Made by a program: the position numbers and the translations under genes | The notes under the pieces: generated by a model | What the model saw: only the letters and a program-made list of their open reading frames with translations | What the model was told of the DNA's origin: nothing | Databases searched by the model: none | From: a virus | Strand: one strand, 5' to 3' | Virus record (IMG/VR): IMGVR_UViG_3300021960_007102 | Coordinates: 1-24,089 of that record | Length of the DNA stretch: 24,089 bases | In this document: positions 5,820 through 22,987 of the stretch, in pieces | Layout: the number at the start of each line of letters is the position of its first letter | How positions within the stretch are numbered: position 1 is the first letter of the stretch

Positions 5820-5825
5820 AGCTTA

Positions 5826-6128: not shown

Positions 6129-6575
6129 TTATATAACTCCTATTATGTGTATTCTATCTTGCTTTGAAGCATTTAATGCTGTGTGATTTTGTGTGGTATC
6201 AACAACATAATAATTACCGTCAGCAGGATAATGTTTTACTTGCTTATTTATAATAAAAAAACATTTGTCATTAGTTATCACTGGTATATGTATTCTTTTT
6301 GTAGTATCCTGATGATATGTATAACAAGTTTTAGGTCTTAAAGTCATTACTCTTGTTCTATACATATTCAAATCCTTTATGATTGAATTTATATATGGCA
6401 AGTCAAATATAGGTACGTCAAACTCTATTTCTCTACGGCCTGTATTATTAAAAATTTCTGCACCTATTCCATAAAAAGGATCTAAATTATCTTTTGTTCC
6501 TTGAAGACATATTTGATCTTTGTAATTAGGTAAAGTTTTAAGTTCTTCTTTTATTTTTTCTAAATCTAATAACAT
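6129..6575 (-). CDS. Small Asp/Asn hydroxylase-like Fe(II)/2OG oxygenase
   Basis: In this 148-aa protein the fold core is nearly the whole chain: YTYHQDTTKRIHIPV with H88, D90 and R94, KCFFIINKQ, YYVVDTTQNHTALN with H131, and R141 ten residues on. The HQD motif followed by R.HIPV closely parallels the HIDYNTDYSVRYHIPL segment of the protein at 3298, supporting the same subfamily. It is the shortest of the seven oxygenase-like proteins. Its ATG overlaps the SDR-like gene by ten bases, and its TAA abuts the ATG of the 100-aa protein. Substrate unknown. Confidence 0.6.
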   Translation of the reverse strand: MLLDLEKIKEELKTLPNYKDQICLQGTKDNLDPFYGIGAEIFNNTGRREIEFDVPIFDLPYINSIIKDLNMYRTRVMTLRPKTCYTYHQDTTKRIHIPVITNDKCFFIINKQVKHYPADGNYYVVDTTQNHTALNASKQDRIHIIGVI

Positions 6576-7067: not shown

Positions 7068-7928
7068 ATGAAAAATGTAAATATAATATGTACAACTAAA
7101 CCTGGTGATGGCCTTCTACACTACAGTTATGAACATTGTTGTTTTCTTAATGATTTAGGTATAAAAGCAAAACTAATAATTATAAGAGACCATAGATTTT
7201 CTGAACAATCTTACATCAATGCTCTAAATGAATGTTATGTCAAATATGAAAATGTAATATTTGATTTTTACACACCCACATCAAACGATATAACATTGAT
7301 TATGGGAAGAAGTCAGCTGACTTTAGCATACTTAAATAAACATACTTACAATAATGATCAACTTCTAACTTTACATTTATTGTTTAGTGGCAATCTTATA
7401 TCTGTATATTCTGAAAATCATGTTAAAGAATATCCTATTGCGTTACAATATTTCAAACCTAAAAAAGTTTATGACTTATGCGACCATGATGTATATGTTA
7501 ATGGTATAGGAGAACAATTTGAAAAGATAATAAACTTTAGTATATACAAACCTGTAAAAGAAGATATACAATTTAAGTATTTGTTTTTAGGCACAAATGA
7601 AATATATTATAGAGAAGTAGAAAAACACATACACAATTATCCTGATCACGGTATTATAACATACAATGACAAATTTATAAACCCTAAACTAAACAATCTA
7701 ATGGTGCCAATCACAAATGTATTAGGTAAATTTGAATCATATGTTTACACAAAACCTAACTTTGATCCTGCACCTAGACTATTCATGGAGTTTAGATGGC
7801 TAAAAAAACAGGTCATTTATTTAAGGGATAAATATAAGCAAGATGGTGGTAAAGTTTATTGGAATAGACCTGTTACCTGCTTATCACAAAGCAAAGATAA
7901 GTTAAAAAATTTATTAAAACTATTATGA
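7068..7928 (+). CDS. Putative GT-B-type glycosyltransferase
   Basis: The 286-aa protein has a two-half Rossmann-like organisation. The N-terminal half opens with a strand and loop (NVNIICTTKPGDGLLHYSYE) like the acceptor domain of GT-B enzymes. The C-terminal half begins with KYLFLGTN near 170-177 and contains YVYTKPNFDPAPRLFMEF at 225-242, reminiscent of the nucleotide-sugar-binding region where Pro and Glu contact the donor. No GT-A DxD motif is seen. It is the first gene of the plus cassette, has no Shine-Dalgarno sequence, and its ATG sits just after the consensus promoter. Its stop overlaps the next start as ATGA. Assignment as a glycosyltransferase is moderate; a phage protein of unknown function with this fold is the alternative. 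Confidence 0.5.
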   Translation: MKNVNIICTTKPGDGLLHYSYEHCCFLNDLGIKAKLIIIRDHRFSEQSYINALNECYVKYENVIFDFYTPTSNDITLIMGRSQLTLAYLNKHTYNNDQLLTLHLLFSGNLISVYSENHVKEYPIALQYFKPKKVYDLCDHDVYVNGIGEQFEKIINFSIYKPVKEDIQFKYLFLGTNEIYYREVEKHIHNYPDHGIITYNDKFINPKLNNLMVPITNVLGKFESYVYTKPNFDPAPRLFMEFRWLKKQVIYLRDKYKQDGGKVYWNRPVTCLSQSKDKLKNLLKLL

Positions 7929-8617
7929 ATAAGAATATGATAACAGAGGAAGAAAAAAGAAGAATAAAGGAAGAGAGAAGAATACAAAAAGATATTAATT
8001 ATTTTTTAGGTAGAAAATTTATTAATATTGATATTGGTTTCAGATGTCCTCTTCAATGTCCAAGATGTCAAAGACAAAGACAACATTTAAATCATGGTGA
8101 AAAAGTACCAGGATATGATTTGACTATGAGTGAGATTGAAAAATTATCTAATTTTTATACTACTTTTGGTTTCTGTGGTCAGTTGTCTGATCCTATATTT
8201 CATCCTAAATTTCCACAAATACTAAAATTATTATATGATAAAGAAGTTCATTGTCAAGTTCACAACGCTGCTTCACAAAAATCTTTAGATTGGTATATTA
8301 AATGTTTTAAAGCAAATCCACGAGCTGATTGGATTTTTGGAATTGATGGTATGCCTGAAGAAAGTCATAAGTACAGAATTAACCAAAATGGTGTTAAGTT
8401 ATTTAATGTTATGTTAAAATCAAAAGAGTACTTAAAAAGACCACCAACGTGGCAATATATTGCATTTAGTTATAATGAAAATAATGTAGAAACTGCAAAA
8501 AAACTAGCAAAAAAATCAGGCGTAAAGTTTTTACTTGTAGAGTCATCACGTTGGATAAATTCAGAAGATCCACTTAAACCAAAAAATGATGAGGTATCAT
8601 TAAATGCCAGAAGATAA
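7925..8617 (+). CDS. Radical SAM core protein, partner of a separate SPASM-like ORF
   Basis: The 230-aa protein has CPLQCPRC (C41, C45, C48), the CxxxCxxC site for the radical SAM [4Fe-4S] cluster, after a charged ~25-residue N-terminal helix. FCGQLSDP near 83-90 occupies the place of the usual GGEP motif, and DWIFGIDGMPEESH lies later in the barrel. It is close in sequence to the protein at 21502, including SHKYR, WQYI and KFLL phrases. The core stops before any auxiliary-cluster domain; that domain is encoded by the next ORF, which overlaps by 14 bases in another frame. The ATG overlaps the preceding stop as ATGA. The product is presumably a SPASM-type enzyme acting on a peptide or sugar; substrate unknown. 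Confidence 0.8.
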   Translation: MNKNMITEEEKRRIKEERRIQKDINYFLGRKFINIDIGFRCPLQCPRCQRQRQHLNHGEKVPGYDLTMSEIEKLSNFYTTFGFCGQLSDPIFHPKFPQILKLLYDKEVHCQVHNAASQKSLDWYIKCFKANPRADWIFGIDGMPEESHKYRINQNGVKLFNVMLKSKEYLKRPPTWQYIAFSYNENNVETAKKLAKKSGVKFLLVESSRWINSEDPLKPKNDEVSLNARR

Positions 8618-9002
8618 TAAATTAAAAAACGAAGAAATAATAATGGAACCTAGATGTATGCCAGCTTCAGCTCCTGATGATTATGAACACAGGATGCAGG
8701 CAGCTGTTACTAATAGAGGCCATCTTATACCTTGTTGTTGGTTGGATCAACCTGAAGTATTAAGAGGTGCAACAATGAAAAAACTTTTAGAAGTAAGTAA
8801 AATAAGTGAACACAACACTATTGAGGATATTTTACTTCATCCACGATGGAGAAAATTTGCTAAAAATTTGGCAGAGAGGAACATAAGTAAAATTTTACCT
8901 ACGTGTATAGATCATTGTCGGAAAAGAAGAGGAAGATTTAAGATTAAAAAAGAAACATATTTAGAATATGATGAAACAAAAGAAAAAGAAACTAATAGTT
9001 AG
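8604..9002 (+). CDS. Stand-alone SPASM-like domain, partner of 7925-8617
   Basis: This 132-aa protein has C18, a CC pair at 44-45 in GHLIPCCWLD, and C101/C105 in PTCIDHC, with IEDILLHPRWRKFAKNL between. This is the layout of a SPASM/twitch auxiliary [4Fe-4S] domain, normally fused C-terminal to a radical SAM barrel. The ATG at 8604 has GATGAGG ending nine bases upstream, so it can be translated independently of the radical SAM ORF. The same Cys pattern recurs in the ORF at 22056, which also follows a radical SAM core. It most likely forms a heteromeric enzyme with the upstream product, although a frameshifted fusion cannot be excluded from sequence alone. Confidence 0.65.
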   Translation: MPEDNKLKNEEIIMEPRCMPASAPDDYEHRMQAAVTNRGHLIPCCWLDQPEVLRGATMKKLLEVSKISEHNTIEDILLHPRWRKFAKNLAERNISKILPTCIDHCRKRRGRFKIKKETYLEYDETKEKETNS

Positions 9003-9807: not shown

Positions 9808-10598
9808 AAAAAATATTATTAGTAGCAGGTTGTAGTTATTCAAACGAAAGATTTACATCTATACATCATCCTGAATTAGATGTTAGTTGGCCTAAATGGC
9901 CTACAATACTTGCTAAAAAGTTAGATATGGAACTTATAAATGTTAGTGAGTCAGGTGCAGGACAAGAATACATCTATAGTAATATAATTGATAAATTACA
10001 AACTATTGATCACTCTAAAATAGGTTTAGTTATAGCAGCTTGGAGTACAGCGCCTAGACGTGATTGGCAGTATGAAGAATTACACTCAAAGAAAGCAATA
10101 TGGTCAAATGATATGAACGACTCAAAAGGTTATATGATCTACTGGATAAACAGATCATTAAGATACTATTATAGTTTTCAAAGTGTGTGTGAAAATTTAA
10201 AATTACCTTATATGCAATTTCAAATGTTAGACTTATTTAAAAGTTATCTACGGCAAGAAGTTATTAAAAGAAGATTTAAAAGTGTCAACACTAGAGATGT
10301 TGCTGAAACATATTTGAATGCGGCTATTGATTTTAATCCAGAAGAAGGATACTGGAAAGAACAAAAAGAAAAAGAATACTTGGCACATATACATAATAGT
10401 CCATACTACGAAAAAATTAATAATAATTTTATAGGGTGGCCTACTCATTCTAAATTAGATGGTTTTTGTGTGGCAAAAAAAGTATTAGATCCAGATACTG
10501 ATAGAATATCAGAATTAGATAGACACCCTAATAAACAAGGGCAAAGAAAAATAATGGAGTTTCTATATGAAAAAATACTTAATAGTTGCTGGTTGTAG
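9804..10598 (+). CDS. SGNH/GDSL hydrolase-like protein, copy 2 of 3
   Basis: The 264-aa protein is a close paralogue of the next gene. GCSYS (S11), SESGAGQEY near 48-56, AAWSTAPRRD, and D239/H241 in DRHPNKQGQ mark the SGNH blocks, with IGWP shared by all copies. The region at 9945-10028 is identical at DNA level to 10708-10791 in copy 3. The last nine residues (ILNSCWL end) are translated through the start of copy 3 in another frame, because the coding sequences overlap by 32 bases; the C-terminus therefore differs from its relatives. No signal peptide is present, so it acts in the cytoplasm unless it is virion-borne. Confidence 0.65.
   Translation: MKKILLVAGCSYSNERFTSIHHPELDVSWPKWPTILAKKLDMELINVSESGAGQEYIYSNIIDKLQTIDHSKIGLVIAAWSTAPRRDWQYEELHSKKAIWSNDMNDSKGYMIYWINRSLRYYYSFQSVCENLKLPYMQFQMLDLFKSYLRQEVIKRRFKSVNTRDVAETYLNAAIDFNPEEGYWKEQKEKEYLAHIHNSPYYEKINNNFIGWPTHSKLDGFCVAKKVLDPDTDRISELDRHPNKQGQRKIMEFLYEKILNSCWL
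9945..10028 (+). repeat. 84-bp direct repeat, copy A (within SGNH copy 2)
   Basis: These 84 bases match 10708-10791 without a mismatch, 763 bases apart, in the same relative position of two tandem paralogues. The flanking DNA is clearly diverged, so the block points to gene conversion, to strong local constraint, or to a recent duplication with uneven divergence. Confidence 0.9.
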
Positions 10599-11343
10599 TT
10601 ATTCAAACGAAAGATTTAGTTCAGTACATCATCCTGAATTGGATGTCAGTTGGCCCAAATGGCCACAGTTACTTGCTGATAGATTAGATATGGAACTTAT
10701 AAATTTAAGTGAGTCAGGTGCAGGACAAGAATACATCTATAGTAATATAATTGATAAATTACAAACTATTGATCACTCTAAAATAGGTTTAATTATTGCA
10801 GCTTGGAGTACAGCACCTAGACGTGATTATCAGACAGAAAGTTTATATTTTAAAAAGGCAATATGGTCAAATGATATGAACGACTCAAAAGGTTATATGA
10901 ATTATTGGATTGATAGGTCATTAAGATATTATTATAGTCTTCAAACTGTGTGTGAATATTTTAAGCTACCTTATAAACAATTTCAAATGGTAGATTTATT
11001 TAAAGGTTATCTGTGGCAAGAACTTATCAATAGAAGAACAAAACAAGTTTTAGACAATAAACAAATTCCTGTTTTAAATAAACCAGAAGATTTAAAAGTT
11101 GATGAAAAACATTGGAAAGAAAAAAAAGAAAAAGAGTACTTGGCACAAATACATAATAGTCCATATTATGAAAAAATTAATAATAATTTTATAGGATGGC
11201 CTACTGATCCAAGACTAAACGGATATAGTTTAAGTGATAAAGTATTAGAAAATGTTGCTGATAGAATATCGAACATAGACTTACATCCTAATGAACAAGG
11301 ACAAAGAAAATTAACGGAGTTTATATATGACAGGTTGGGATAG
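10567..11343 (+). CDS. SGNH/GDSL hydrolase-like protein, copy 3 of 3
   Basis: The 258-aa protein is built like copy 2: GCSYS near the N-terminus, SESGAGQEY, AAWSTAPRRD, FIGWP, and D238/H240 in DLHPNEQGQ. Relative to copy 2 it differs most in the segment after residue 150, where an insertion around QVLDNKQIPVLN is unique. Its end overlaps the aminotransferase start by 17 bases. Its own ATG lies inside the tail of copy 2, so each repeat unit starts at the ATG and ends in the next gene's start. Function as acyl-group hydrolase or transferase is inferred from fold and neighbours. Confidence 0.65.
   Translation: MKKYLIVAGCSYSNERFSSVHHPELDVSWPKWPQLLADRLDMELINLSESGAGQEYIYSNIIDKLQTIDHSKIGLIIAAWSTAPRRDYQTESLYFKKAIWSNDMNDSKGYMNYWIDRSLRYYYSLQTVCEYFKLPYKQFQMVDLFKGYLWQELINRRTKQVLDNKQIPVLNKPEDLKVDEKHWKEKKEKEYLAQIHNSPYYEKINNNFIGWPTDPRLNGYSLSDKVLENVADRISNIDLHPNEQGQRKLTEFIYDRLG
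10708..10791 (+). repeat. 84-bp direct repeat, copy B (within SGNH copy 3)
   Basis: Identical to 9945-10028; see that entry. It codes for the oxyanion-block region and the strand leading to AAWST. Confidence 0.9.
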
Positions 11344-12589
11344 AGAATACCTAGAACACAAAGATGAATACCTAGAACTTTTTGATAAGTCAATGCAAAA
11401 AGAACAAGAAGGTAATGTTGAGTTTTTAGAAGACAAACTTAAATTATACACAGGTAGAAAATATGCTGTAGCCTGTAGTAATGGAACAGACGCATTACAT
11501 TTTGCTTTAAGAAGTTTAGATATAAGAAAAGGTGATGAAGTATTAACAACACAATTCTCATGGATATCTACAGCGTCTTGTATATCAATGGTAGGTGCAA
11601 CACCTGTATTTTGCGAAATAGATTTATCTTCTTATCATATGACTTTAGATAGTATTAAACGTATGTATTCAGATAAAGTAAAAGCAATTGTTTATCCACA
11701 TCTATTTGGCAATATGTCAGATACAAAAGAGATATTAGAATTTTGTAAAGAAAAAAACATTACATTTATAGAAGACGCAGCTCAATCATTAGGAACAAGT
11801 CTTAATGATGTTAAAGCAGGATCGATAGGTGATATATCAACTTTAAGTTTTAATGCAAACAAAGTTGTTGCTGGGATTGCAGGAGGCGGTGCTATACTTA
11901 CAGATGATAAGGATAAAGCAGAAATGTTTAGAAAATTAAGAAGACACGGTAACAATGAGATTTTAGGATATAATTCTAAAATGTTACTAATGAATGCTGA
12001 ATTTATAAACTTTAGATTAAACAGAATGAAAGAATGGCAAGCTAAAAGGCAAGAAATAGCAAAACAATATGATGAACAATTAAGTGAATATGTTATAGTA
12101 CAACCTACAACAAATGGCCTTGACCATAATTATCACAAATATGTTATTAGATTGCAAAATAAAAAAGTTAGAGATCATCTTAAAAAAGTATTAGCCGCAA
12201 AAGTACATTATGATCTACCCCTATCTGAAAATAAAATGTATAAAGACATAGAATATAGATCAGATAAAATGTTTATAAGTAAAATAGTTTGTGATACTAT
12301 ATTAACTTTACCTATTCATCCGTATATGACAAAACAAGAAGTTAATAAAATTATAAACACAATTATAATAACATTAGAACATAAAAAATATGAATTTGTA
12401 AATAATATGAAAAAAATATTAGGTGATGAAATATTTGATAACAGTTTATTAAATAAACCAACTGAACCTATCTATGATTATATTGTAGAAAAAATTTATC
12501 AAACACCAGATTATATTGAAGATGAACTATTTAAAAATAAACAAAAATTGAAAACAGCATTTAATAAATTTTATGAAAACATTATCTGA
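11327..12589 (+). CDS. DegT/DnrJ/EryC1-family PLP sugar aminotransferase
   Basis: The 420-aa protein belongs to the PLP-dependent family that aminates nucleotide-linked keto sugars. Landmarks are SNGTDALHFAL at 51-61 (cofactor phosphate binding), QFSWIST near 77-82, YPHLFGNM, IEDAAQSLG at 148-156 with the PLP-ring Asp and Gln, and SFNANKVVAGIAGGGA at 174-189 with K179 as the likely Schiff-base Lys. RRHGNN and the NFRLNRMKEWQAKR segment are also typical. The usual family length is ~370 aa; a ~55-residue helical, Lys-rich C-terminal extension is unusual. A nucleotide-sugar 4,6-dehydratase partner is not in the window; the epimerase fragment at the right edge hints that sugar genes continue outside. 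Product: an amino sugar for the cassette's glycosyltransferases. Confidence 0.88.
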   Translation: MTGWDREYLEHKDEYLELFDKSMQKEQEGNVEFLEDKLKLYTGRKYAVACSNGTDALHFALRSLDIRKGDEVLTTQFSWISTASCISMVGATPVFCEIDLSSYHMTLDSIKRMYSDKVKAIVYPHLFGNMSDTKEILEFCKEKNITFIEDAAQSLGTSLNDVKAGSIGDISTLSFNANKVVAGIAGGGAILTDDKDKAEMFRKLRRHGNNEILGYNSKMLLMNAEFINFRLNRMKEWQAKRQEIAKQYDEQLSEYVIVQPTTNGLDHNYHKYVIRLQNKKVRDHLKKVLAAKVHYDLPLSENKMYKDIEYRSDKMFISKIVCDTILTLPIHPYMTKQEVNKIINTIIITLEHKKYEFVNNMKKILGDEIFDNSLLNKPTEPIYDYIVEKIYQTPDYIEDELFKNKQKLKTAFNKFYENII

Positions 12590-13397
12590 AATACAAGAAA
12601 ATTATTTAGCTATAGATTTTTTTATGTCAATGTCTTGTAACAAAGACTGTCATTACTGTACAAGTTACACTTTAGAAATGCGTAATCTTACAGTAGATAT
12701 AGATTTTTTAAAGATGACTTTAGGATTCTTAAAAGATTATAAAGTAAGAATTAATCTTTTAGGTGGTGAGCCAGGACTAATTAAAAATTTAGATGATGTG
12801 ATAAATGAAATAAAAAAATATCCAAACTTTGTATGTTCAGTATTGTCTAACTCATTTATAAGAAAAAGATATCCACATATACTTGAAGATAAAGATATAC
12901 TTTATGTTGAACATAATATATTAGATTGGTATGCTGACGGTGTAAAAAAATTAGGCAACTTTGACTTTGTACCTGAAAATGAATTTAATAATTATAATGT
13001 TGTTGTACAAACACCAAACTACTTTACTTTTAGTCACAAATTTCCTGATATAGTTAAAAAGCTAGATCACAAAAACACTATGTGGAAAGCATTTAATGGA
13101 AGATCAAAACAGTTTACAGACATTATTCAGGCAGATGAGATTGATCGTAAAATGTGTGCAGCTTTTCCTATGGTACCTGTTATAGATTTTGAAAAAAGAC
13201 ATATAGTACATTGCAGTAAAAAATTTGCTAATAATACTGAACTGTCAAAAACATTTGAACTAACGAAAGAAAATATAGACAAGATGATGAACTTCCAATT
13301 ATTTAAATATGAAAACTATTGTAAAACTTGTACAGAATGGGTACAACCAAAAGGTCACTTTCCTATGAGAAAATATGCGAGGGTCTTAAATGGTTAA
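12573..13397 (+). CDS. Radical SAM protein with C-terminal Cys cluster
   Basis: The 274-aa protein has CNKDCHYC (C22, C26, C29) for the radical SAM cluster and LLGGEPGL with GGEP at 64-67, the canonical SAM-contacting motif. The C-terminal part has C195, C214 in HCSKK and C250/C253 in YCKTC, enough for one auxiliary iron-sulfur cluster of the SPASM/twitch kind. Unlike the pairs at 7925 and 21502, core and auxiliary region are in one chain. It overlaps the aminotransferase by 17 bases and the carbamoyltransferase by eight. Placement between those two suggests a step on the same sugar or small molecule, such as epimerisation or dehydration, but the family also includes peptide-modifying enzymes. 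Confidence 0.8.
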   Translation: MKTLSEIQENYLAIDFFMSMSCNKDCHYCTSYTLEMRNLTVDIDFLKMTLGFLKDYKVRINLLGGEPGLIKNLDDVINEIKKYPNFVCSVLSNSFIRKRYPHILEDKDILYVEHNILDWYADGVKKLGNFDFVPENEFNNYNVVVQTPNYFTFSHKFPDIVKKLDHKNTMWKAFNGRSKQFTDIIQADEIDRKMCAAFPMVPVIDFEKRHIVHCSKKFANNTELSKTFELTKENIDKMMNFQLFKYENYCKTCTEWVQPKGHFPMRKYARVLNG

Positions 13398-14871
13398 AAT
13401 ATATTCAATAGCATTAAATTTACACGACCATAACACTTACGATGGTATATTTCATAATCAAAAAGAAAGATTTACAAGATTTAAGCACAATCTTCCATAT
13501 CACGCTGAAGCATACAATCATCAATCAGATATATTAAATCCAGCCGACTATAGACTAAATGATGAATTTGTAAAAGAATATTGGAAAAAGAAAGATGATG
13601 TTTTAGCATTTACATATACGTACGGCGGTGTTAGAATGTGTAGAGATATGTTACCAAAAGATGTGTTTGATTATGAACCTAAAAAACTATGGGATCACTA
13701 TTACAAAGATGGAATTTATTTTATAGACCACCATCAATCTCACGCCACATACGCTTTTCTCAATTCAGGCTATAAACAATCTGATATATTGGCAATAGAT
13801 GGGATTGGGTCAAAATACAGATGTGTATTTTTTGACAATGAACATAATTTAATTGACCTATCAGACAAATTACCTATTGGATGGTTATGGAATCATATGT
13901 CTGGACTTACGGGTTTTGGCACACTCGGTGCAAGTAAATTAATGGGAAAAGTTGGATATGGTAAATATAGTGAATATTATTATAATATATTTGAAACCAT
14001 ACTTGATGGCCCTATTACTGAAAAGAAACAAAAACATTTTGCACATATCAAGTTAGATAATATAGATGATTTAGCACACACACTACAAAAATTTACAATA
14101 GATAAAATAAAAGAATACGTATATCCATTAAAATCTTGTGATAACTTGTGTATTGCAGGTGGTGTTGCATATAATGGTTATATGAACGAAGAATTTACTA
14201 ATCATTATGAAAATGTATTTGTGCCACCAGCTGTTGGTGATGAAGGACAAGCAATTGGCACATATCAACACGCTGATTATGTATTAAACAATAATATACA
14301 CAAATCAGAAACATTTGCTGGTAAAGAATATGAATATAATGAAGGTGAACAAGTGAATTATAAAGAGATTGCACAGGCCATTGCTGACGGTAAAATAGTT
14401 GGTTGGTTTCAAGGCAAATCAGAAAGTGGTAATCGTGCATTAGGCAATAGAAGTATATTAGCTGATCCTCGAAATCCTGACATCAAAGATATTATTAATC
14501 ATACTATAAAGATGAGAGAAGATTTTAGACCATTTGCACCTGCTGTATTAGAAGAACACTATGAAGAATATTTTGATACAAGATTACCTAGTCCTTATAT
14601 GAGCAGAATATGTAAAGTTAAATCAGATAAAGTGCCTGGTATTACACACGTTGATAATACAGCAAGAATACAAACTGTTAATAAAGAATTTAACCAAAAG
14701 TTTTACAATATTATCAATGAGTTTTATAAGATAACAGGAATACCTATGTTGTTAAATACAAGTTTTAACTGTAGAGAACCTATAGTAGAGAGTCCTAAAC
14801 AGGCGATAAATACCTTTAAGAGAACGGCATTGGATATATTAGTAATTAATGATAAGGTAATATGTAAATGA
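13390..14871 (+). CDS. NodU/TobZ-family O-carbamoyltransferase
   Basis: The 493-aa protein is a two-domain carbamoyltransferase. The N-terminal Kae1-like domain has KERFTRFKHN, DHHQSHA at 113-119 (metal ligands), LAIDGIGS near 134-141 and IAGGVAYNGYMN at 255-266. The C-terminal YrdC-like domain has GWFQGKSESGNRALGNRS at 338-355, DPRN, EDFRPFAPA and MLLNTSFN. These enzymes use carbamoyl phosphate and ATP to make carbamoyl-AMP and transfer the carbamoyl group to a hydroxyl of a sugar or antibiotic. The length is slightly below the usual 530-600 aa. The ATG overlaps the preceding stop as ATGGTTAA. With the aminotransferase and glycosyltransferases around it, a carbamoylated sugar is the most likely product. 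Confidence 0.88.
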   Translation: MVKIYSIALNLHDHNTYDGIFHNQKERFTRFKHNLPYHAEAYNHQSDILNPADYRLNDEFVKEYWKKKDDVLAFTYTYGGVRMCRDMLPKDVFDYEPKKLWDHYYKDGIYFIDHHQSHATYAFLNSGYKQSDILAIDGIGSKYRCVFFDNEHNLIDLSDKLPIGWLWNHMSGLTGFGTLGASKLMGKVGYGKYSEYYYNIFETILDGPITEKKQKHFAHIKLDNIDDLAHTLQKFTIDKIKEYVYPLKSCDNLCIAGGVAYNGYMNEEFTNHYENVFVPPAVGDEGQAIGTYQHADYVLNNNIHKSETFAGKEYEYNEGEQVNYKEIAQAIADGKIVGWFQGKSESGNRALGNRSILADPRNPDIKDIINHTIKMREDFRPFAPAVLEEHYEEYFDTRLPSPYMSRICKVKSDKVPGITHVDNTARIQTVNKEFNQKFYNIINEFYKITGIPMLLNTSFNCREPIVESPKQAINTFKRTALDILVINDKVICK

Positions 14872-15557
14872 AACATTTTGATTTGTTAGAACAAAAAAGA
14901 AAACACGTTAGAAGATATAATAAAAAAATACCTTCTAAAAATTTAATAGAAACTTCTTTATATAAAGCCTGGAAGACAACACCATCAAAAAACAATGCCA
15001 TACCATACAAAGTCTTTGTTTGGGGTCCAGATAAAGAAGCTGATAAAGAAAAAATATACAATCTTTGTTTAAAAGGTTGTAAAGATGCCGAACAACGTGC
15101 TGTTAATGACCGATTGTCAACAAAAACATCTTCAATAAATAATCCAAATTTTGAACATATAAAAAATAACCCATATCTATTTACAATACATGGTAGAATT
15201 TCAAAACCAAATGTATTTCATAAAAATTTAATTGACAATCACGGTATGTTTTATGATCAAGGTTATGAGAGTCATATGAAAAAAATTGAAAATAGTGTTG
15301 CTGTTGAAGTTGGAATATTTATTTCAAACCTATCAACTTATTTGCTTGAAAATGAATTAGACATTTCATATAATTTATGTTTTAAAAGGTCTCCTAGTGA
15401 TTGGCATAAAGTTGGTCTAAATATGATTAAGACAAGACCTATATTAATGATGAGTTGTGGCTATGCTGAAAGATACAGATATGAAGACGTGGAAGAATGG
15501 AAAATGATAGGTGATGATATAAAACCTGAAATAAAAGAAATTATAGAATGGATATAA
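14868..15557 (+). CDS. Nitroreductase-fold protein, tandem copy 1
   Basis: This 229-aa protein starts with a nitroreductase-type segment (KRKHVRRYNKKIP, with basic residues that contact FMN phosphate in the family), then TTPSKNNAIPYKVFVWG corresponding to the APSxxNxQPW region. The dimer helix SVAVEVGIFISNLSTYL is followed by a C-terminal SCGYAERYRYE segment in place of the IGYP element. The middle carries an unusual insertion containing HGRISKPNVFH and MFYDQGYESH. Family members use FMN and NAD(P)H to reduce nitro groups, quinones or double bonds, and some dehydrogenate peptides or cobalamin precursors. The ATG overlaps the carbamoyltransferase stop (ATGA). It is a tandem paralogue of the next gene. 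Confidence 0.65.
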   Translation: MKHFDLLEQKRKHVRRYNKKIPSKNLIETSLYKAWKTTPSKNNAIPYKVFVWGPDKEADKEKIYNLCLKGCKDAEQRAVNDRLSTKTSSINNPNFEHIKNNPYLFTIHGRISKPNVFHKNLIDNHGMFYDQGYESHMKKIENSVAVEVGIFISNLSTYLLENELDISYNLCFKRSPSDWHKVGLNMIKTRPILMMSCGYAERYRYEDVEEWKMIGDDIKPEIKEIIEWI

Positions 15558-15560
15558 TAT

Positions 15561-16262
15561 ATGAAACACTTTGATTTATTAGAACAAAAAAGAAAACACG
15601 TTAAAACTTATAGTAAAAAAATACCTCCTAAAGAACTAATAGAACGAGCATTGTGGAAAGCATGGAAAACATCTCCGTCAAAAAATAATGCTATGGCTTA
15701 TCAAGCTCTAGTGTGGGGGCCAGATAAAGAATTAGAAAAAATTGCAATACACAGTTTAGTTGTTAAATGTCACGCTGATGTTGAAGATAAAGCTGTTACA
15801 GACGGACAAGCAACAATAACTCAAGGCGCTAAAGTAGGCGGATATGAAAATCCATACTATAGACATATAAGAGAAAATCCTTATTTAATAACCGTACACA
15901 GCAGACTTTCTACACCAAATAAATTTTATGAAAGACAAGTTAAAACAGGTCATTTTTATGATCAAGGCTTCAAAAGCCATATTGAAAAAATAGTTGATAG
16001 TGTTGCTGTTGAAGTTGGAATATTTATTGCCAATTTAACAAACTATTTGTTAGAAGAAGGACTTGACATATCTTATAATTCTTGTTTCAAAAGAAGACCT
16101 GAAGAATGGCATAAAGTCGGTTTAAAAATGGTAGACACTAGACCTATTGTTATGTTAAGTTGTGGGTGGGGTAAAAAGTACAGATATGAAGACCTACGAG
16201 AGTTAAAGATTCAACACGAAGACATTAAACCAGAAATAGGAGACATAATAAAGTGGATATAG
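15561..16262 (+). CDS. Nitroreductase-fold protein, tandem copy 2
   Basis: The 233-aa paralogue of the preceding gene lies three bases after its stop. The first nine residues are identical (MKHFDLLEQ) and the N-terminal 40 bases of DNA are nearly so; a 31-base stretch is also identical between 15293-15323 and 15998-16028. The dimer helix SVAVEVGIFIANLTNYL and SCGWGKKYRYED match copy 1, but a Cys and His-containing stretch (VVKCHADVEDKAVTDG) and a longer insertion differ. Retention of both suggests a heterodimer or two related substrates. FMN dependence is expected from the fold, not shown. Confidence 0.65.
   Translation: MKHFDLLEQKRKHVKTYSKKIPPKELIERALWKAWKTSPSKNNAMAYQALVWGPDKELEKIAIHSLVVKCHADVEDKAVTDGQATITQGAKVGGYENPYYRHIRENPYLITVHSRLSTPNKFYERQVKTGHFYDQGFKSHIEKIVDSVAVEVGIFIANLTNYLLEEGLDISYNSCFKRRPEEWHKVGLKMVDTRPIVMLSCGWGKKYRYEDLRELKIQHEDIKPEIGDIIKWI
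16238..16255 (+). promoter_or_regulatory. Shine-Dalgarno and GTG start of the PP-loop gene
   Basis: AGGAGA at 16238-16243 lies nine bases before GTG at 16253. No ATG occurs in frame until residue 41, after the catalytic PP-loop, so GTG must be the start. Confidence 0.75.
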
Positions 16263-17107
16263 AAAAATTAAACAATATACTAGATGAAGTATTTACACCA
16301 GAAATTGATGATGTAATAAGTAAACAAAAATTGATAGGAGTTAGATTAAGTGGAGGTATAGACTCAGCGTTTATGACCTTTCTTACTATGAGTAAATATC
16401 CAAATATAAAAATATTACCTATCACTATGTTTAATAAGTTGAGGCCTGCAGCTATGGATGCTGTAGATAATGTTATTAATACATTAAAATTATTAAATCC
16501 AAATAATAACAATCTTTTAGACTCTGAAATATCATTTTTTGACTCATCAGGATTTGTTAAAACACAAGAGATGATAGATGAATTTGAAAAAACAGGCAAA
16601 AAATATAATCCTAAAGATATATTTCAAAAAAAATGGTTTTATAGTTTATGGAAAAAATACGAAAACTTAAATATATATTTTTCTGGAGAAACTTTAAATC
16701 CACCAATAGAAGAACAACCTAAGATAATTACTGGAGAGTTACGTAAGTTTCCAGAAGATAGAAATCATAAAAAAGAAAAAGTACTTTCAAAAAGAAGAGC
16801 ACATCACATTCAGGCTCCTAATAACTTTAAATATGAATTTAGACCTTTTCGTAATAAAAACAAAAAACAAGTAGCACAATGGGTAAAATCTTTAGGACTT
16901 GATAAGACATTATTTCCCGTAACTGAAACCTGTGAAACTGAAGTGGAAATGTATAAAGAATATGGAAAACCAGATTTTTTTAATTTAGTATATAAAAAAC
17001 CTGGAGCAGAACCGTGTAAAAGATGTTGGCCATGTAGAGAAAAATATTGGGCATACGGTTACTATGATTTCGGTGCAACTGAAACAATTAATGAATTTAA
17101 ATTATAA
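16253..17107 (+). CDS. PP-loop ATP pyrophosphatase with QueC-like Cys site
   Basis: The 284-aa protein has RLSGGIDSAF with the SGGxDS PP-loop at 33-38, which binds ATP and adenylates a carboxylate or amide-type substrate. Near the C-terminus C227 (TETCE) and C255, C258, C261 (PCKRCWPC) resemble the zinc site of QueC, the 7-cyano-7-deazaguanine synthase, although the gap before CxxCxxC is longer (27 residues). Asparagine-synthase-like amidotransferases share the PP-loop but lack these Cys. It starts with GTG inside the end of the nitroreductase gene and stops in TAATG with the methyltransferase. No QueD, QueF or GTP cyclohydrolase is visible, so deazaguanine synthesis is only one possibility. 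Confidence 0.75.
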   Translation: MDIEKLNNILDEVFTPEIDDVISKQKLIGVRLSGGIDSAFMTFLTMSKYPNIKILPITMFNKLRPAAMDAVDNVINTLKLLNPNNNNLLDSEISFFDSSGFVKTQEMIDEFEKTGKKYNPKDIFQKKWFYSLWKKYENLNIYFSGETLNPPIEEQPKIITGELRKFPEDRNHKKEKVLSKRRAHHIQAPNNFKYEFRPFRNKNKKQVAQWVKSLGLDKTLFPVTETCETEVEMYKEYGKPDFFNLVYKKPGAEPCKRCWPCREKYWAYGYYDFGATETINEFKL

Positions 17108-17715: not shown

Positions 17716-18559
17716 TTTTTATATTGACATTCCAAAAGATGAACTCGATATTTTTGATAAAAATATAATAGGTAAAAAGGGTGTTCCTATTAACTTTGTA
17801 ACAAAGGATGCCTTTAAAGAACATTATACAAAATTAGTAGCTTGTAAAGAACTGTACGCAAAAGAAATAGGAGTTCCTTTCAAACTATTTGAATATGACT
17901 CAGATTTTATAATATATAAAGAAAAATTACAAACAGAATATCCGTTTTTAACAACATATAATATTGTAAATTTTTATAAAATACATTTACTATATAAACT
18001 TTCAACAGAATATGATGAAATACTTTATTTAGATTTTGATGTTGTACCTATGAAAACAGATAATTTTTTTGATAATTGGAATCTATCAAAAGGAATTGCA
18101 ATTCAATATAATACACATAAAGTTATTTCTATGAGTGAAGTAACTGAGCGATCACAAACAATCCGTAGTCCAACATCAAAATATTATAACGCTCAAGCAA
18201 TGTTAATAGATAGAGGTTTAAATCCAAAACACCACGTTGTAAATACAGGAATTATTGGTGCAAGTAAAAAATATTTACAACAATTAAAATACTTTAATAA
18301 TTTTAGTGCAGATTTAGCTGAAATGAGTAAACTAACAAAAGGCCATGATATGTTTCCTAAAAAGATAACAGATTTTTTTGGTTGGGATAATGAAACATTA
18401 TTTGCAGTAAAACTTATGGAAAATAATGTAGATGTTCAATGGTTAGACAATAAGTGGCATTATTTTTTTTCAGGTCAAGGATATGTGCCAGATAACGTAG
18501 TTTTATGTCACGCTATTAATAAAAGATTTGATATTGTGTGGAGAAAATACGATGCTTAA
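17696..18559 (+). CDS. GT-A-type glycosyltransferase
   Basis: Taken from ATG at 17696 the protein is 287 aa; the frame extends upstream only four residues to a TTG, so the ATG start is preferred (it overlaps the methyltransferase by 20 bases). Features are a leading strand RIIYSFYIDIP, YKIHLLYKLSTEYDEILYLDFDVVP with the metal-binding DFD at 113-115, and VVNTGIIGASK later, where the NTG turn is common in GT-A enzymes of the GT8/GT32-like kind. The C-terminal region has DNETLFAV and a WHYFFSG segment. Nucleotide-sugar donor and acceptor are unknown. It is followed by another GT-A gene with an eight-base overlap, suggesting consecutive sugar additions. Confidence 0.72.
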   Translation: MKRIIYSFYIDIPKDELDIFDKNIIGKKGVPINFVTKDAFKEHYTKLVACKELYAKEIGVPFKLFEYDSDFIIYKEKLQTEYPFLTTYNIVNFYKIHLLYKLSTEYDEILYLDFDVVPMKTDNFFDNWNLSKGIAIQYNTHKVISMSEVTERSQTIRSPTSKYYNAQAMLIDRGLNPKHHVVNTGIIGASKKYLQQLKYFNNFSADLAEMSKLTKGHDMFPKKITDFFGWDNETLFAVKLMENNVDVQWLDNKWHYFFSGQGYVPDNVVLCHAINKRFDIVWRKYDA

Positions 18560-19283
18560 AATATGTACTGTTTATTTTGAAGGTTTATATAAGCCTGAAC
18601 ACGTATCAAAATTATATAGATCGTTAAAAAAATACAGTAGTGTGCCTTTTGAGTTTATATGTTTAAGTGACACAGATGTTGAAGCGGATATAGTATTGCC
18701 GTACAACCATCACAGTAATATTAAAAAACATTGGCATAAGTTAAAATTTTTTAGTAATCAATTTGCATATCAACAAGCAGGCGATGATATTATTGTTATG
18801 GACATTGACCAACAGATTGTAGGTAATATTGACGATATATTAAATTTTTCTGTAAAAGAAAATGAGTTTGTTACCTATGATAGCTGGTGGAATATTAAGA
18901 CAAATAGGTTTGCTGATAAAGTTATATTACCTATCAATGGAGGTTTCTATAAATTTAAGTCAGGCAGTTTTAACTACATATGGGATGATTTTTCACTAAA
19001 TCCAGAATACTGGCAACTACACTATTACAATAAAGGTGATGTTCATTACAAATATTATGGGGAACAAAATTATGTATTTTGGAAATTAGATGAACACAAA
19101 GTTGATATAAAGTATTTACCTGGTGAATGGATTGTTAAATACACAAATGAAGACAGACAAAACATAGAACTAAATAAAATGTATGCTAAAAAATTTAATA
19201 CAGATTATATGATACTAGGTGAACCTCATAATAATATAAAAATTATTCACTATCTAGGACCAAAAAATGGAAAAAATATTTAA
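18552..19283 (+). CDS. GT-A/GT8-like glycosyltransferase
   Basis: From ATG at 18552 the protein is 243 aa. The frame reaches a TTG at 18528, but GGAG at 18540-18543, eight bases before the ATG, and the ATGCTTAA overlap favour the ATG. Features are an N-terminal ICTVYFEGLY strand, FICLSDTDVEADIV, DDIIVMDIDQQIVGNI with the DID motif at 84-86, PINGGFYKFKSG, and a C-terminal IIHYLGPKNGK that mirrors the HFxGxxKPW end of GT8-type enzymes. It lies between another GT-A gene and a radical SAM gene. Likely role: transfer of one sugar to a phage- or host-made acceptor. Confidence 0.72.
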   Translation: MLKICTVYFEGLYKPEHVSKLYRSLKKYSSVPFEFICLSDTDVEADIVLPYNHHSNIKKHWHKLKFFSNQFAYQQAGDDIIVMDIDQQIVGNIDDILNFSVKENEFVTYDSWWNIKTNRFADKVILPINGGFYKFKSGSFNYIWDDFSLNPEYWQLHYYNKGDVHYKYYGEQNYVFWKLDEHKVDIKYLPGEWIVKYTNEDRQNIELNKMYAKKFNTDYMILGEPHNNIKIIHYLGPKNGKNI

Positions 19284-20673
19284 AGATAAAAAAATGGCAG
19301 CAGTGACTAATAGTAGTCCAGGTAATGTGGATACATCAGATTGGTTTAAATTTTTGTCTAAAGAGGGTGAAGAAAGAAAACTAGATCCTAACTCTATTAT
19401 GAATAGAGCAAAAGATAAAAAAAGTTGGTTTTGTGTTCATCCTTTTGCTGAAATGTTTATAGAACTAGACGGCTCTTACAAAGCTTGTTGTCTTGCAGGT
19501 AAAAGTGATAAACATAATATAAACAATACCCCTATAAAAACATGGATGCAAGATAGTGATTATTTAAAACAGTTAAGAAAAGAAATGTTAGATCCTGTAA
19601 AACATGGAACTAAAGCTATTAATGAACATTGTATAAGATGTATTAGTGATGAAAAGCGTTATGGTAAATCCAGAAGAACACATCATATGTGGCGTGAGTC
19701 AAATAGTAAAGCACGTTGGGATGCTATAGAAAGAAATGTTAGAATGTATGAAAAAACTGGCGAATGGGCATTTGATGAAAGAATAATGCAAATACAACTA
19801 AAGTCATTTGGTATTGAATGTAATTTAGATTGTCATATGTGTAACCACGACAGCTCATCTATGCGTATTGATATGATGGATAAACATAATGTTTATAGTG
19901 AAAAGATGTTTGGCTCGATGGCAAAAACTAAACGAAAAATTAAACTTGTTGAGGATAATCTAAATAAAATAGATAAAAAGGATGTTACTGAACAGATAAA
20001 AGAACTTGCACCATATCTAAACAGTATAAAAATTATAGGTGGTGAACCATTAATAATGAAAAGATACTTTGATTTTTTAAATGAAATAGTTAAAACAGGC
20101 CACGCACCTCACATAACAGTTAAGTTTCAAACTAATCTTACAAAATTGGGAGAAGGTAATCACAAATTTATTGACTTTATACCAAAATTTAAACAAACAT
20201 CATTTACAGCTTCTATTGATGGTATTAATCAATATGCTGAATATTTAAGAAGAAGATCAAACTGGAAAGAAATAGAAGAAAATATAGCTTTATTAAATTC
20301 TGAAAAATATAAAGATAAAGCATTTGTTGATGTAAATTCTGTTGTCACGTGTTTTAGTGTGTTGCGTTTTAATGAGGTAATTAAATATTGTGCTGAGAAT
20401 CCAGGCATAAGAAGTGCTGGTTGGTTAATGATTGAAAGACCTAAGTCATTAAGAGTAAATAATTTACCTAAAAAATTAAAAGAACAACTTATTCCAAAAT
20501 ATGAAGGATGGCCTGATATTCAAGCAGCATTACGACTTGACGAAGAACCAAACAATGATTTTCAGGACACACTAAACTATATGTTAAAACAAGACAAGGC
20601 ATACAAAGGAACAAAATGGGAACTAAATCTATTTGATGTGTTTCCAGAATTAAAGGAGTATTACAATGGCTGA
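19267..20673 (+). CDS. Radical SAM protein with N-terminal SPASM/twitch-like domain
   Basis: In this 468-aa protein an N-terminal auxiliary-type domain comes first: FCVHPF (C56), YKACCLAG (C74, C75), IKTWMQDSDYLKQLRKEML, then EHCIRC (C122, C125). The radical SAM core follows with CNLDCHMC (C185, C189, C192) and IIGGEPLI with GGEP at 258-261. This resembles the twitch-domain radical SAM proteins found in marine phages. The C, CC, CxnC layout of the N-terminal domain is the one seen in the separate ORFs at 8604 and 22056, but here it precedes the core. The start is supported by AGGA about six bases upstream. Substrate unknown; family relatives modify peptides, sugars or cofactors. Confidence 0.8.
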   Translation: MEKIFKDKKMAAVTNSSPGNVDTSDWFKFLSKEGEERKLDPNSIMNRAKDKKSWFCVHPFAEMFIELDGSYKACCLAGKSDKHNINNTPIKTWMQDSDYLKQLRKEMLDPVKHGTKAINEHCIRCISDEKRYGKSRRTHHMWRESNSKARWDAIERNVRMYEKTGEWAFDERIMQIQLKSFGIECNLDCHMCNHDSSSMRIDMMDKHNVYSEKMFGSMAKTKRKIKLVEDNLNKIDKKDVTEQIKELAPYLNSIKIIGGEPLIMKRYFDFLNEIVKTGHAPHITVKFQTNLTKLGEGNHKFIDFIPKFKQTSFTASIDGINQYAEYLRRRSNWKEIEENIALLNSEKYKDKAFVDVNSVVTCFSVLRFNEVIKYCAENPGIRSAGWLMIERPKSLRVNNLPKKLKEQLIPKYEGWPDIQAALRLDEEPNNDFQDTLNYMLKQDKAYKGTKWELNLFDVFPELKEYYNG

Positions 20674-21505
20674 TATAGAAAAAGAAAAGAAGTATATAAA
20701 AAAAATACAACAATGTCAAAGAAATTGGGACTATTCAAAACCAATACCTGATGAACATATTAATTATCTCTTATGGGTTGCTCAAAACGCACCATCTAAA
20801 CAACACGAAGCCTACTATGACATACATTATACAGCAGATAGAAAGGTTATAGAGGAACTTTATAAAGACACATGGGGTTCAACACATTCTGGTGCTTTTA
20901 ACAATAAACCTCCTGCTACATGGCGTAATCCTCAGGTTAATGCTAGTCTGTTTATGTTATTTGTTATGAAACATCCCCCTACAGCAAGAAACTCAATGGT
21001 TGACGGATCAGTTGCTAAAACAAATCATGCACCTAGATGGGAAAATGGTTTAGTTGCAGTAGGTATGGCTCTAGGTTTAGTTATGAGAGCTGCAGCTGAA
21101 TTAGGATATGCAACAGGTTGCAATAAAAATAATAGTCAAGGTCCTGATTCTGATTTTAGTTGGGAAAGAAGATTAGGCATTTATGAAGATCAATATATTC
21201 ATAAAACTAAAAAAATGTTATATGGAATAGGTATAGGTTATCCACAAGAAGGAAGACCTAGAAACGAATCAGATGACCATGAATTATTAATTGGTGCAGC
21301 TAATGGTCATAATTTATCTTTAAGAGATAGAGGAGAAGAACGAGATATACGAGGTTGGAAATTTAGACAATGTAAAATTGTTGATGTAAGAACTTCAAAT
21401 ACAGCGGTAGATCCATATGGAAACACACACGAACTTCCAGAAAAACCTATATTTTGGACAAACACACAATATCCACGTGAAATTAAATGTATTGAAATAA
21501 AGTGA
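20666..21505 (+). CDS. Nitroreductase-family flavoprotein, divergent third member
   Basis: The 279-aa protein has VAQNAPSKQHEAYYDI at 38-53 (FMN-contact region), ENGLVAVGMALGLVMRAAAE at 126-145 as the dimer helix, LGYATGCNKN, and YGIGIGYPQEGRPRN at 186-200, the C-terminal element of nitroreductases. It is a better match to the family than the tandem pair at 14868-16262 and clearly not their recent duplicate. About 60 extra residues follow the last family motif (VDPYGNTHELPEKPIFWTN) and are unassigned. It has a strong Shine-Dalgarno (AAGGAG at 20653-20658) and overlaps the radical SAM gene by eight bases. Expected to be an FMN-dependent oxidoreductase; substrate unknown. Confidence 0.75.
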   Translation: MADIEKEKKYIKKIQQCQRNWDYSKPIPDEHINYLLWVAQNAPSKQHEAYYDIHYTADRKVIEELYKDTWGSTHSGAFNNKPPATWRNPQVNASLFMLFVMKHPPTARNSMVDGSVAKTNHAPRWENGLVAVGMALGLVMRAAAELGYATGCNKNNSQGPDSDFSWERRLGIYEDQYIHKTKKMLYGIGIGYPQEGRPRNESDDHELLIGAANGHNLSLRDRGEERDIRGWKFRQCKIVDVRTSNTAVDPYGNTHELPEKPIFWTNTQYPREIKCIEIK

Positions 21506-22056
21506 TTCCTTATAATGAAAGAACTATTAATATAGACGCAGGTCCACGTTGCACCTTAGAGTGTTCTGCTTGTGTCAGACAAGTATTCAGAAAACAAGGT
21601 AAAAAGATACCTGGTAAAGATTTAACACCAGAACAATTTAGTAAAATTATAAAATTTTTTAAAAGAGTTTCTTTTTGTGGAACATTTTCTGATCCTATAT
21701 TTAATGTTCATTTTATTAAACTATTAAAGATGTGTAAAGATCAAAATATATTTGCCGAGGTACACGCTGCTGCTTCACATAAACCTGAAAAATGGTGGAA
21801 AGAAGCATTTTTAGCAAATTTAGATGCTAGGTGGGTTTTTGGTATAGACGGTTTACCTAAAGATAGTCATAAATATAGAAAAAACCAAGATGGTGAATTT
21901 CTATTTGATATGATGTTATTAAATAAGCAATTAGGCTCAAATCCTGAATGGCAATATATAATATTTGACTATAACAAAAATAATGTTGATGAAGCAATAA
22001 AGATCGCAAAACAACACAAAATAAAATTTTTACTAATAAAATCAGAAAGAATATAA
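21502..22056 (+). CDS. Radical SAM core protein, second split pair
   Basis: The 184-aa protein carries CTLECSAC (C17, C21, C24) near the very start, then FCGTFSDPIF, RWVFGIDGLPKDSHKYR, WQYIIFDYNKNN and KFLLIKS. All of these align with the protein at 7925, which has an additional ~24-residue N-terminal helix and a longer tail. Translation starts at GTG in a GTGA overlap with the nitroreductase stop; no ATG precedes the cluster motif, and the Shine-Dalgarno is weak, so expression depends on reinitiation. It ends right after the last barrel strand, and the next ORF supplies a SPASM-like domain. Likely the catalytic subunit of a two-protein radical enzyme. Confidence 0.8.
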   Translation: MIPYNERTINIDAGPRCTLECSACVRQVFRKQGKKIPGKDLTPEQFSKIIKFFKRVSFCGTFSDPIFNVHFIKLLKMCKDQNIFAEVHAAASHKPEKWWKEAFLANLDARWVFGIDGLPKDSHKYRKNQDGEFLFDMMLLNKQLGSNPEWQYIIFDYNKNNVDEAIKIAKQHKIKFLLIKSERI

Positions 22057-22421
22057 TGACAGAATTTCACGGAAAAATAGGTTGGAAAAAAAGTATTTCG
22101 TATAAAGAAAATCCTAATAATACATTAAAACCTAAATGTCTTTTAACTGATAGGGATTTGTCATATTCAGTTACAGGCCACATTCTTCCTTGTTGTTGGG
22201 TAAACAGTAGTTTTGAAGACAAACATTTAAAAAAATTATTTAAAGATAACTTACATATAGATAATAATGATTCTATAGAAGATATTTTAAACAGTAATGA
22301 ATGGAAAGAATTTATGGATTTATTACAAAATGGTTCAGATAATGAACTTCCTAAAGTATGTAAATTTTTTTGTAGTAAAGGATTAGATATTAATGTTGAA
22401 AATGAGAGAGCTGAATTTTGA
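22056..22421 (+). CDS. Stand-alone SPASM-like domain, partner of 21502-22056
   Basis: This 121-aa protein has C28, a CC pair at 46-47 in GHILPCCWVN, and C102/C106 in KVCKFFC, with IEDILNSNEWKEFMDLL between. The pattern and phrases match the ORF at 8604 (GHLIPCCWLD, IEDILLHPRW, PTCIDHC). The ATG shares a base with the preceding stop (TAATG), a classic coupling arrangement. It is in a different relative frame from the 8604 pair, which argues against the split being one repeated sequencing error. Expected to bind an auxiliary [4Fe-4S] cluster and complete the radical SAM enzyme encoded just upstream. Confidence 0.65.
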   Translation: MTEFHGKIGWKKSISYKENPNNTLKPKCLLTDRDLSYSVTGHILPCCWVNSSFEDKHLKKLFKDNLHIDNNDSIEDILNSNEWKEFMDLLQNGSDNELPKVCKFFCSKGLDINVENERAEF

Positions 22422-22987
22422 GAATAATTTGTTGTAGATTTGGTAATAAGTTTAGTCAATGGCACGTTGATAACTTAAAACATATGATTGATGAATACTC
22501 TGGTATAAAATATGACAGCTTTGAAGTTATAGAAGATGATTTATATGGTAACTGGTTCAATAAGTTTCAAATGTATGATAAATTTAAAGACGGCGAGAAC
22601 TTATATTTTGATTTAGATATAGTTATATATGACAGACTTCCTAATCTTATAAGAAAAAACTTTACATTATTAGATGATACATGGTGGAGGGAAACAGCTC
22701 ATACACCTCTTAATTCATCTATTGTATCTTGGACAGGTGATGTATCTTACATATGGGATAAATTTAAAAAAAATGATGAATTTTTTATTAGTACATATAC
22801 TAGAGGTAGTGATGAATGGTATTATAAAAATATTAAATACGAAACGTATAATAGAGTATGCCCTTCAATTAAAGATTATATGTATCAACAACCACCTCAA
22901 TTTAGTGTTTGCACACTAGGTCAAATGCACCACCTACAAGAAAAAGGATGGACAGGCTGGTATTCTAATTATTTTTTAAATAGGTAA
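22418..22987 (+). CDS. Small GT-A-type glycosyltransferase-like protein, TTG start
   Basis: This 189-aa protein runs from TTG at 22418, in a TTGA overlap with the preceding stop. The first in-frame ATG is at residue 23, after the conserved first strand (RIICCRFGNKFS), and a purine-rich GAGAGAG lies nine bases upstream, so TTG is likely the true start. GENLYFDLDIVIYDRLPNL carries the DLD metal motif at 65-67, similar to DIDQQIVGNI in the protein at 18552. It lacks about 60 C-terminal residues compared with that relative. It is the last gene of the plus cassette, and its 3' end overlaps the convergent gene by 12 bases. Substrate unknown. Confidence 0.65.
   Translation: MRIICCRFGNKFSQWHVDNLKHMIDEYSGIKYDSFEVIEDDLYGNWFNKFQMYDKFKDGENLYFDLDIVIYDRLPNLIRKNFTLLDDTWWRETAHTPLNSSIVSWTGDVSYIWDKFKKNDEFFISTYTRGSDEWYYKNIKYETYNRVCPSIKDYMYQQPPQFSVCTLGQMHHLQEKGWTGWYSNYFLNR

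Follow-up and report, generated by a model that had tools for sequence, protein, structure and literature searches.

A probable two-polypeptide, twitch-type radical SAM enzyme in a viral gene cassette and the history of its split genes

The question raised by this locus is whether two adjacent viral genes at 21502-22421 encode the two halves of one radical SAM enzyme and, if so, when the break between them arose. They lie in a 24 kb viral window (the whole stretch of DNA that was analysed, 24,089 nucleotides), for which the nearest named relative was found to be Pelagibacter phage Mosig EXVC030M, a member of the Kyanoviridae, with 76.6% identity over ~3.6 kb. An initial sequence-only reading had taken these genes (pair 2) and a second pair at 7925/8604 (pair 1) to be paralogous radical SAM/SPASM enzymes broken at the same domain boundary and had argued, from their different junctions, that the split was genuine and old. 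The answer reached here, which is held to be likely though well short of certain, is that pair 2 is one twitch-type radical SAM enzyme in two polypeptides, split recently from a fused gene.

The two gene pairs and their surroundings

The first gene of pair 2 (21502..22056, + strand) encodes a radical SAM barrel subunit of 184 aa with the motif CxxxCxxC, which matches phrog_21308 (E 4.8e-14) and also Pfam Radical_SAM (E 2.9e-4, a score below the gathering threshold). Its GTG start matches the homologous ATG start of the orthologues and it stops just past the last barrel strand. The second gene (22056..22421, + strand) encodes a predicted one-cluster Fe-S subunit of 121 aa, recognised by its invariant Cys together with a Pfam SPASM match and a weak match to NF033640. 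The one-base TAATG overlap that had been claimed for the pair is there at 22054..22058 on the + strand, with both ORFs and the shared base present (stop TAA at 22054-22056, ATG at 22056-22058). Alignment of the DNA at this site revealed 23 nt between AGA and GGAAAAATAGG, compared with 51 nt in the fused relative L003, a net loss of 28 nt, and the window loses more bases relative to L003 further along, inside the linker, which is 59-67 aa long in the fused genes. According to the linker alignment the first 25 aa of partner 2 are a leftover of the linker of the fused orthologues, including the fragment GKIGWKKS.

Pair 1 consists of a radical SAM barrel gene of 230 aa (7925..8617, + strand; ORF call, profile match and tree) and a twitch gene of 132 aa (8604..9002, + strand; ORF call and tree). 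Both halves are homologous across the two pairs, as had been proposed, the barrels sharing 49% identity over 177 aa (E 6e-59) and the partners 26% over 95 aa (E 2e-10), and the Cys pattern is likewise common to them, with CxxxCxxC in both barrels and C..GxxxPCC..CxxxC in both partners. The junctions do differ: the genes of pair 1 overlap by 14 bases and those of pair 2 by one, and the relative frames are not the same.

The identification of the partners as SPASM domains did not hold up. SPASM domains carry two auxiliary clusters and twitch domains one (PMC9012708; PMC10470005), and at least seven Cys are required for the two. In the partner motif an early Cys is followed by GxxxP with a CC pair behind it and by a closing CxxxC, and all five of these Cys are invariant or almost invariant across 142 homologous domains. 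Five are enough for one auxiliary cluster, which makes the partner a twitch domain and not a full SPASM domain, with a single auxiliary cluster predicted from its Cys. Partner 2 scored 21.7 bits against Pfam SPASM, for which the cut-off is 21.5, and partner 1 fell below it. The twitch class is defined by CxxxCxxC in a partial TIM barrel and by four Cys able to bind one cluster; the former motif is invariant in the barrel homologues and the fold was predicted for L005, a fused relative, while the latter are supplied by the C, CC and CxxxC of the 142 domains. In that class the cluster domain extends the barrel's own polypeptide, whereas in both window pairs it is a separate ORF. Neither partner could be placed in NF033640 (cut-off 170 bits), partner 2 reaching only 20.3 bits (E 2.5e-4) and partner 1 giving no match. 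Barrel 2 scored 30.3 bits against the tungsten cofactor oxidoreductase maturase TIGR04317 (cut-off 380 bits), which is a superfamily resemblance only.

Pair 2 is closely packed between its neighbours, all on the + strand. Barrel 2 overlaps by 4 bases a nitroreductase-like flavoenzyme gene (20666..21505; PF00881 E 1.3e-6), a possible electron donor, and the order of nitroreductase then barrel is kept in L003. Partner 2 overlaps by 4 bases a GT-A-type glycosyltransferase-like gene (22418..22987; phrog_1962 E 3.3e-5 and a fold match), and a second glycosyltransferase-like gene occurs at 18528..19283 (phrog_1962 E 3e-12). The window also encodes a DegT/DnrJ/EryC1 sugar aminotransferase (11327..12589; PF01041 E 1e-80), a PP-loop ATPase that is QueC/NAD synthase-like by profile matches (16253..17107), a carbamoyltransferase and further nitroreductases. 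Among the latter, 14868-15557 and 15561-16262 are tandem nitroreductase-like paralogues, judged alike by eye and the first without a Pfam match; the third window nitroreductase, which is matched by Pfam, is the one overlapping barrel 2.

Several other genes of the window deserve mention in their own right. The gene at 19267-20673 encodes a full-length NF033640 N-terminal-twitch radical SAM protein (277 bits, cut-off 170), a single chain with its twitch ahead of the barrel and thus the fused counterpart of a reversed split order found in relatives. A fourth radical SAM gene at 12573-13397 has the viperin family as its top NCBIfam match (33.9 bits, cut-off 180), and its homologues in relatives adjoin DegT, split pairs or carbamoyltransferase. 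Three related, SGNH hydrolase-like genes lie in tandem at 8968-11343, with the start motif G-C-S-Y and the end motif DxHPNxxGxxK, and homologues of these come after 41 of 142 barrel/twitch pairs. On the - strand, a block at 450-6575 includes aspartyl/asparaginyl hydroxylase-like genes (Pfam match at 3298-4125) and a fatty-acid desaturase, and several of its ORFs look by eye like 2-oxoglutarate oxygenases.

Split, fused and reversed relatives

Relatives were collected by alignment-based searches of viral contigs, from which the best 80 of 355 and the best 80 of 502 were taken. For 159 distinct barrels, the twitch was in the next ORF in 107 cases, in the same ORF in 29 and in the preceding ORF in 8, the 15 left unassigned including contig ends and distant fused proteins missed by the twitch profile. 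Of the 144 distinct barrels to which a twitch was assigned, 115 have it in a separate ORF. At the 82 distinct junctions of barrel and twitch the genes overlap by 1, 4, 8, 11, 14, 20, 23 or more bases or are separated by short gaps, and both relative frames occur. Split pairs were found in marine phage contigs, in the isolate Mosig EXVC030M and in two Hyphomicrobiales chromosomal contigs, and it is clear from this occurrence in an isolate phage, in bacterial chromosomes and in many contigs that the split architecture is no artefact. The chromosomal cases (L093:4947-5899 and L095:4932-5899) are lone split pairs with a 4-base overlap, from two Hyphomicrobiales MAGs, and have differing neighbourhoods; one is set amid gcvT, a methyltransferase and a short-chain dehydrogenase (Pfam) and the other beside ORFs whose translations read as guaB and guaA.

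The reversed order, with the twitch before the barrel, was clear in L102, L113 and L089. In L102 and L113 the twitch gene sits between a DegT-like gene and the barrel. The reversed pair at L089:3723-4654 lies outside any sugar cassette, its twitch preceded by a terminase large subunit-like gene and a tail-sheath-like gene lying on the other side of the pair. L039 was scored as reversed but left out, as its twitch may belong to a barrel past the end of the locus. The barrels of L101, L102, L104, L110, L111, L113 and L089 were considered as partnerless, until a partner was found upstream of each. On a tree across the family at least 10 changes among the fused, split and reversed states were counted, and for the split/fused distinction the starred branches alone force at least 4.

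The modules have also been joined to other enzymes. In L019, L021 and L023 (e.g. L021:4623-5552) the twitch forms one protein with a homologue of the window gene at 22418-22987, and in L030, L049 and L092 (e.g. L030:4633-5691) with a homologue of that at 18528-19283, which makes two different glycosyltransferase-like fusion partners in different phage lineages. The fold predicted for a twitch-glycosyltransferase fusion was of low confidence (pLDDT 68, pTM 0.56), matched GT-A and is used solely as support for the GT-A fold. A PP-loop ATPase-like domain, similar to the ATPase at 16253..17107 in the window, lies N-terminal to the barrel in one ORF at L072:3206-4582, with the twitch separate at 4587-4919, and long ATPase-barrel ORFs of this type also occur in L073 and L080. 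The reversed order and the fusions indicate that barrel and twitch are separately encoded, recombinable modules. Since neither readthrough nor frameshifting can yield such arrangements, the twitch must act from another chain. It is possible, if somewhat doubtful, that in a two-subunit radical SAM family the domain with the auxiliary cluster exists as a free subunit that can be exchanged. Were this true, phages would place the twitch before or behind the barrel, duplicate it, fuse it to glycosyltransferases, and repeatedly cut it and rejoin it, and one twitch might serve several barrels, coupling the radical step directly to sugar transfer.

Additional twitch genes without an adjacent barrel were observed at L113:6561-7013 and also in L108 and L114, in cassettes that already have complete pairs.

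Whether each barrel keeps its own partner was approached through patristic distances, which for barrels and partners of 70 split pairs were correlated with r = 0.76 (maximum of 0.25 in 2000 permutations). For the window pairs the correlation was 0.745 with each barrel joined to its own partner and -0.258 with the partners swapped, as inheritance with the own partner predicts, and the suggestion that each barrel has a partner of its own is to that extent supported. One caveat is that congruence of trees is to be expected for adjacent, co-inherited genes and so is not, alone, proof of binding specificity, and another that the closely related tandem pairs in L118 and L130 are indistinguishable by the distance correlation. 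A twitch that is not dedicated, being either a free redox or scaffold protein or a domain that docks on several barrels per genome, is considered unlikely: the barrel-less twitch genes of L108, L113 and L114 and the twitch-glycosyltransferase fusions are in keeping with it, but pairing is adjacent at nearly all loci and the trees are correlated. An apparent conflict between barrel and twitch trees in one group (L097, L118, L130, L141), which would also have favoured it and for which partner exchange between paralogous pairs was considered, was not significant (p-AU 0.10).

Age and reality of the split in pair 2

Pair 1 was placed in a clade of nine rows, all of them split, that was recovered identically from the barrels (SH-aLRT 99) and from the partners (96), and the split in the pair-1 lineage is, as judged from these trees, old. 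Pair 2 has a different history. Its closest relatives, L002, L003 and L004, whose barrels are 77-79% identical to its own, are single ORFs of 343-351 aa and the next relatives, L016, L017 and L022, are also fused. The joint tree groups pair 2 with L002-L004 (support 100/99), and a tree that holds the six fused relatives together with pair 2 outside was rejected (p-AU 0.012), so that pair 2 nests among fused genes and the great age proposed for its split must be given up. On the simplest reading, a fused gene appears to have been divided recently by deletion in a dispensable linker, giving pair 2. Fission is favoured by parsimony, with the caveat that fusion in the relatives costs just one extra step, and the pair-2 fission rests on one viral population. 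Pair 2 is thus a late, lineage-specific case of the split architecture. Of the original description of the split as genuine and old, the first part stands and extends to a widespread feature (82 junctions), and the second stands for pair 1 and fails for pair 2; the differing junction frames, which had been offered as an argument for age, reflect independent events instead.

The earlier view would be rescued if both pairs came by duplication from one old split ancestor and the fused relatives were re-fused later, which is improbable. Most of the family is indeed split, and re-fusion seems to have occurred at least once within a split clade, in L134. However, a tree making the two window pairs sisters was rejected by the AU test (p-AU 5e-6), and with it a single split ancestor for both, and the rejection of the six fused relatives as one clade without pair 2 means that at least two fusions would be required immediately beside it.

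Little probability is likewise attached to a sequencing or assembly error, in which a missing base has split a gene that is truly fused. The AT-rich junction and the fused state of the six nearest relatives would suit such an error, as would the frames themselves, since one added base near 22050 rejoins them and no stop interrupts the partner frame as far back as 21993. Against this, the loss from the linker greatly exceeds a single base (28 nt net and a second gap), the ATG falls exactly on the stop codon and splits are certain elsewhere in the family. When the pair-2 junction was sought in other contigs it was found, in identical form, in one only, L001 from sample 3300021959, which has no mismatch to the window across 8588 bases and hence belongs to the same viral population as the window.

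Decay of the gene, with a frameshift that killed pair 2 and left the partner ORF as a remnant, has a slim chance. The event is recent and confined to one population and pair 1 persists as an intact paralogue, yet the cluster Cys are all intact, there is no additional stop, the restart codon sits on the stop and split pairs are maintained by the rest of the family. Comparison of pair 2 with the fused orthologues gave dN of ~0.14-0.22 and dS of ~0.6-1.0, with dN/dS of ~0.2-0.3 in both halves as an average that covers the time before fission too, and a third-position excess in both halves; together these argue against a degenerate gene. Programmed frameshifting, by which the overlapping ORFs and open frames of both pairs would be joined into a fused product, is very improbable and was dismissed, because the differing junction frames demand opposite shifts in the two pairs, junction types vary widely and the reversed gene order is not joinable in this way.

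A proposed reaction and comparison with known systems

The predicted fold of the fused relative L005 (pLDDT 85, pTM 0.85) matches BlsE, anSME, SuiB, SkfB, MoaA and BtrN, and a search of solved structures by sequence gave weak matches only. The model is of low confidence at residues 200-211, in the linker that is the site of the break in the split genes. On the strength of this model barrel and twitch may assemble from two chains into the shape of the fused form. A DegT homologue was found within 4.5 kb of 73 of 142 barrels which, with the twitch-glycosyltransferase fusions and the barrel-PP-loop ATPase fusion, points to a sugar pathway. From these associations the two-chain enzyme most likely modifies a sugar in a glycan pathway, both the complex and its substrate being putative, and analogy with BtrN leads to the more tentative suggestion that the pair oxidises a sugar that is later aminated and transferred.

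In the model favoured here, the barrel (21502-22056) would carry the SAM-cleaving [4Fe-4S] cluster and the partner (22056-22421) one auxiliary [4Fe-4S] cluster, with the partner docking at the open end of the barrel like the C-terminal domain of the fused relatives and TAATG coupling the translation of the two. The fission would have come about through loss of DNA in a disordered linker, as an event distinct from the earlier split of pair 1. On this proposal a cut in the linker is tolerated since the twitch acts in trans; in related phages it is encoded first or fused elsewhere. A 5'-deoxyadenosyl radical might then attack a sugar or nucleotide-sugar while the auxiliary cluster takes an electron, as in BtrN, and the product would feed the DegT aminotransferase, the carbamoyltransferase and the glycosyltransferases that decorate a glycan. 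A DegT-family aminotransferase also acts on the BtrN product.

In published accounts SPASM and twitch domains extend the barrel at its C-terminus (PMC9012708), and the open-access literature yielded no description of a split radical SAM/SPASM or twitch enzyme with its auxiliary-cluster domain as a separate subunit. What is new here is the auxiliary-cluster domain as a separate gene, within a known enzyme class. What auxiliary clusters contribute to radical SAM enzymes has yet to be settled (PMC9012708, PMC10470005), and a cluster on its own polypeptide could be mixed, omitted, swapped or pre-reduced without mutating the enzyme, with fused and split orthologues that are ~78% identical serving as matched pairs for such tests. 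For annotation, the missing subunit would be found in many phage 'hypothetical proteins' encoded next to radical SAM genes that look truncated.

BtrN, MoaA and SkfB resemble the phage family in having a CxxxCxxC barrel and a small C..Gx4C..C..C domain able to hold one cluster, and the predicted fold of the fused relative matches BtrN 4m7t (E 6e-6) as well as SkfB 6efn and MoaA. In all three the twitch is C-terminal on the same chain (PMC9012708), whereas in the phage family it is a separate gene and has, unlike theirs, a fifth invariant Cys (CC). In the butirosin pathway the substrate oxidised by BtrN is an aminocyclitol (PMC9012708). A likeness to such a sugar or cyclitol dehydrogenase is hinted at, indirectly, by the DegT neighbours and the glycosyltransferase fusions, the reaction being read from this context. 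The best solved-structure match of the fused relative was BlsE 7vob (E 4.6e-11, 14% identity), the cytosylglucuronate decarboxylase of the blasticidin S pathway, which has a sugar nucleoside as substrate (PMC3715490); BlsE is one chain of very low identity and likeness of fold does not give the reaction. The NF033640 N_Twi_rSAM proteins, to the N-terminal twitch part of which partner 2 is matched, also put the twitch first but are, unlike the split pairs, single chains.

Radical SAM genes are numerous in some large phages, with 12 in one marine T4-like phage (PMC5332604) and 11-12 in the Campylobacter phages CP220 and CPt10 (PMC2853527). The latter are large phages with many radical SAM and sugar-transferase-like genes (PMC2853527) and have homologous barrels (29% identity, phrog_21308) but, unlike the window pairs, these are in one ORF with a Cys-rich C-terminal part (gp083, gp084). 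A parallel among named phages is Mosig EXVC030M, where the split genes Mosig_00084/00085 overlap by 8 bases and lie, within genes 83-89, in a cassette resembling that of the window in its aminotransferase, MoaA-like gene, carbamoyltransferase and nitroreductase. One pair of the family, of the pair-1 type, was found in Mosig compared with two in the window, and in the Mosig record the barrel is annotated as a molybdenum-cofactor enzyme and its partner as hypothetical.
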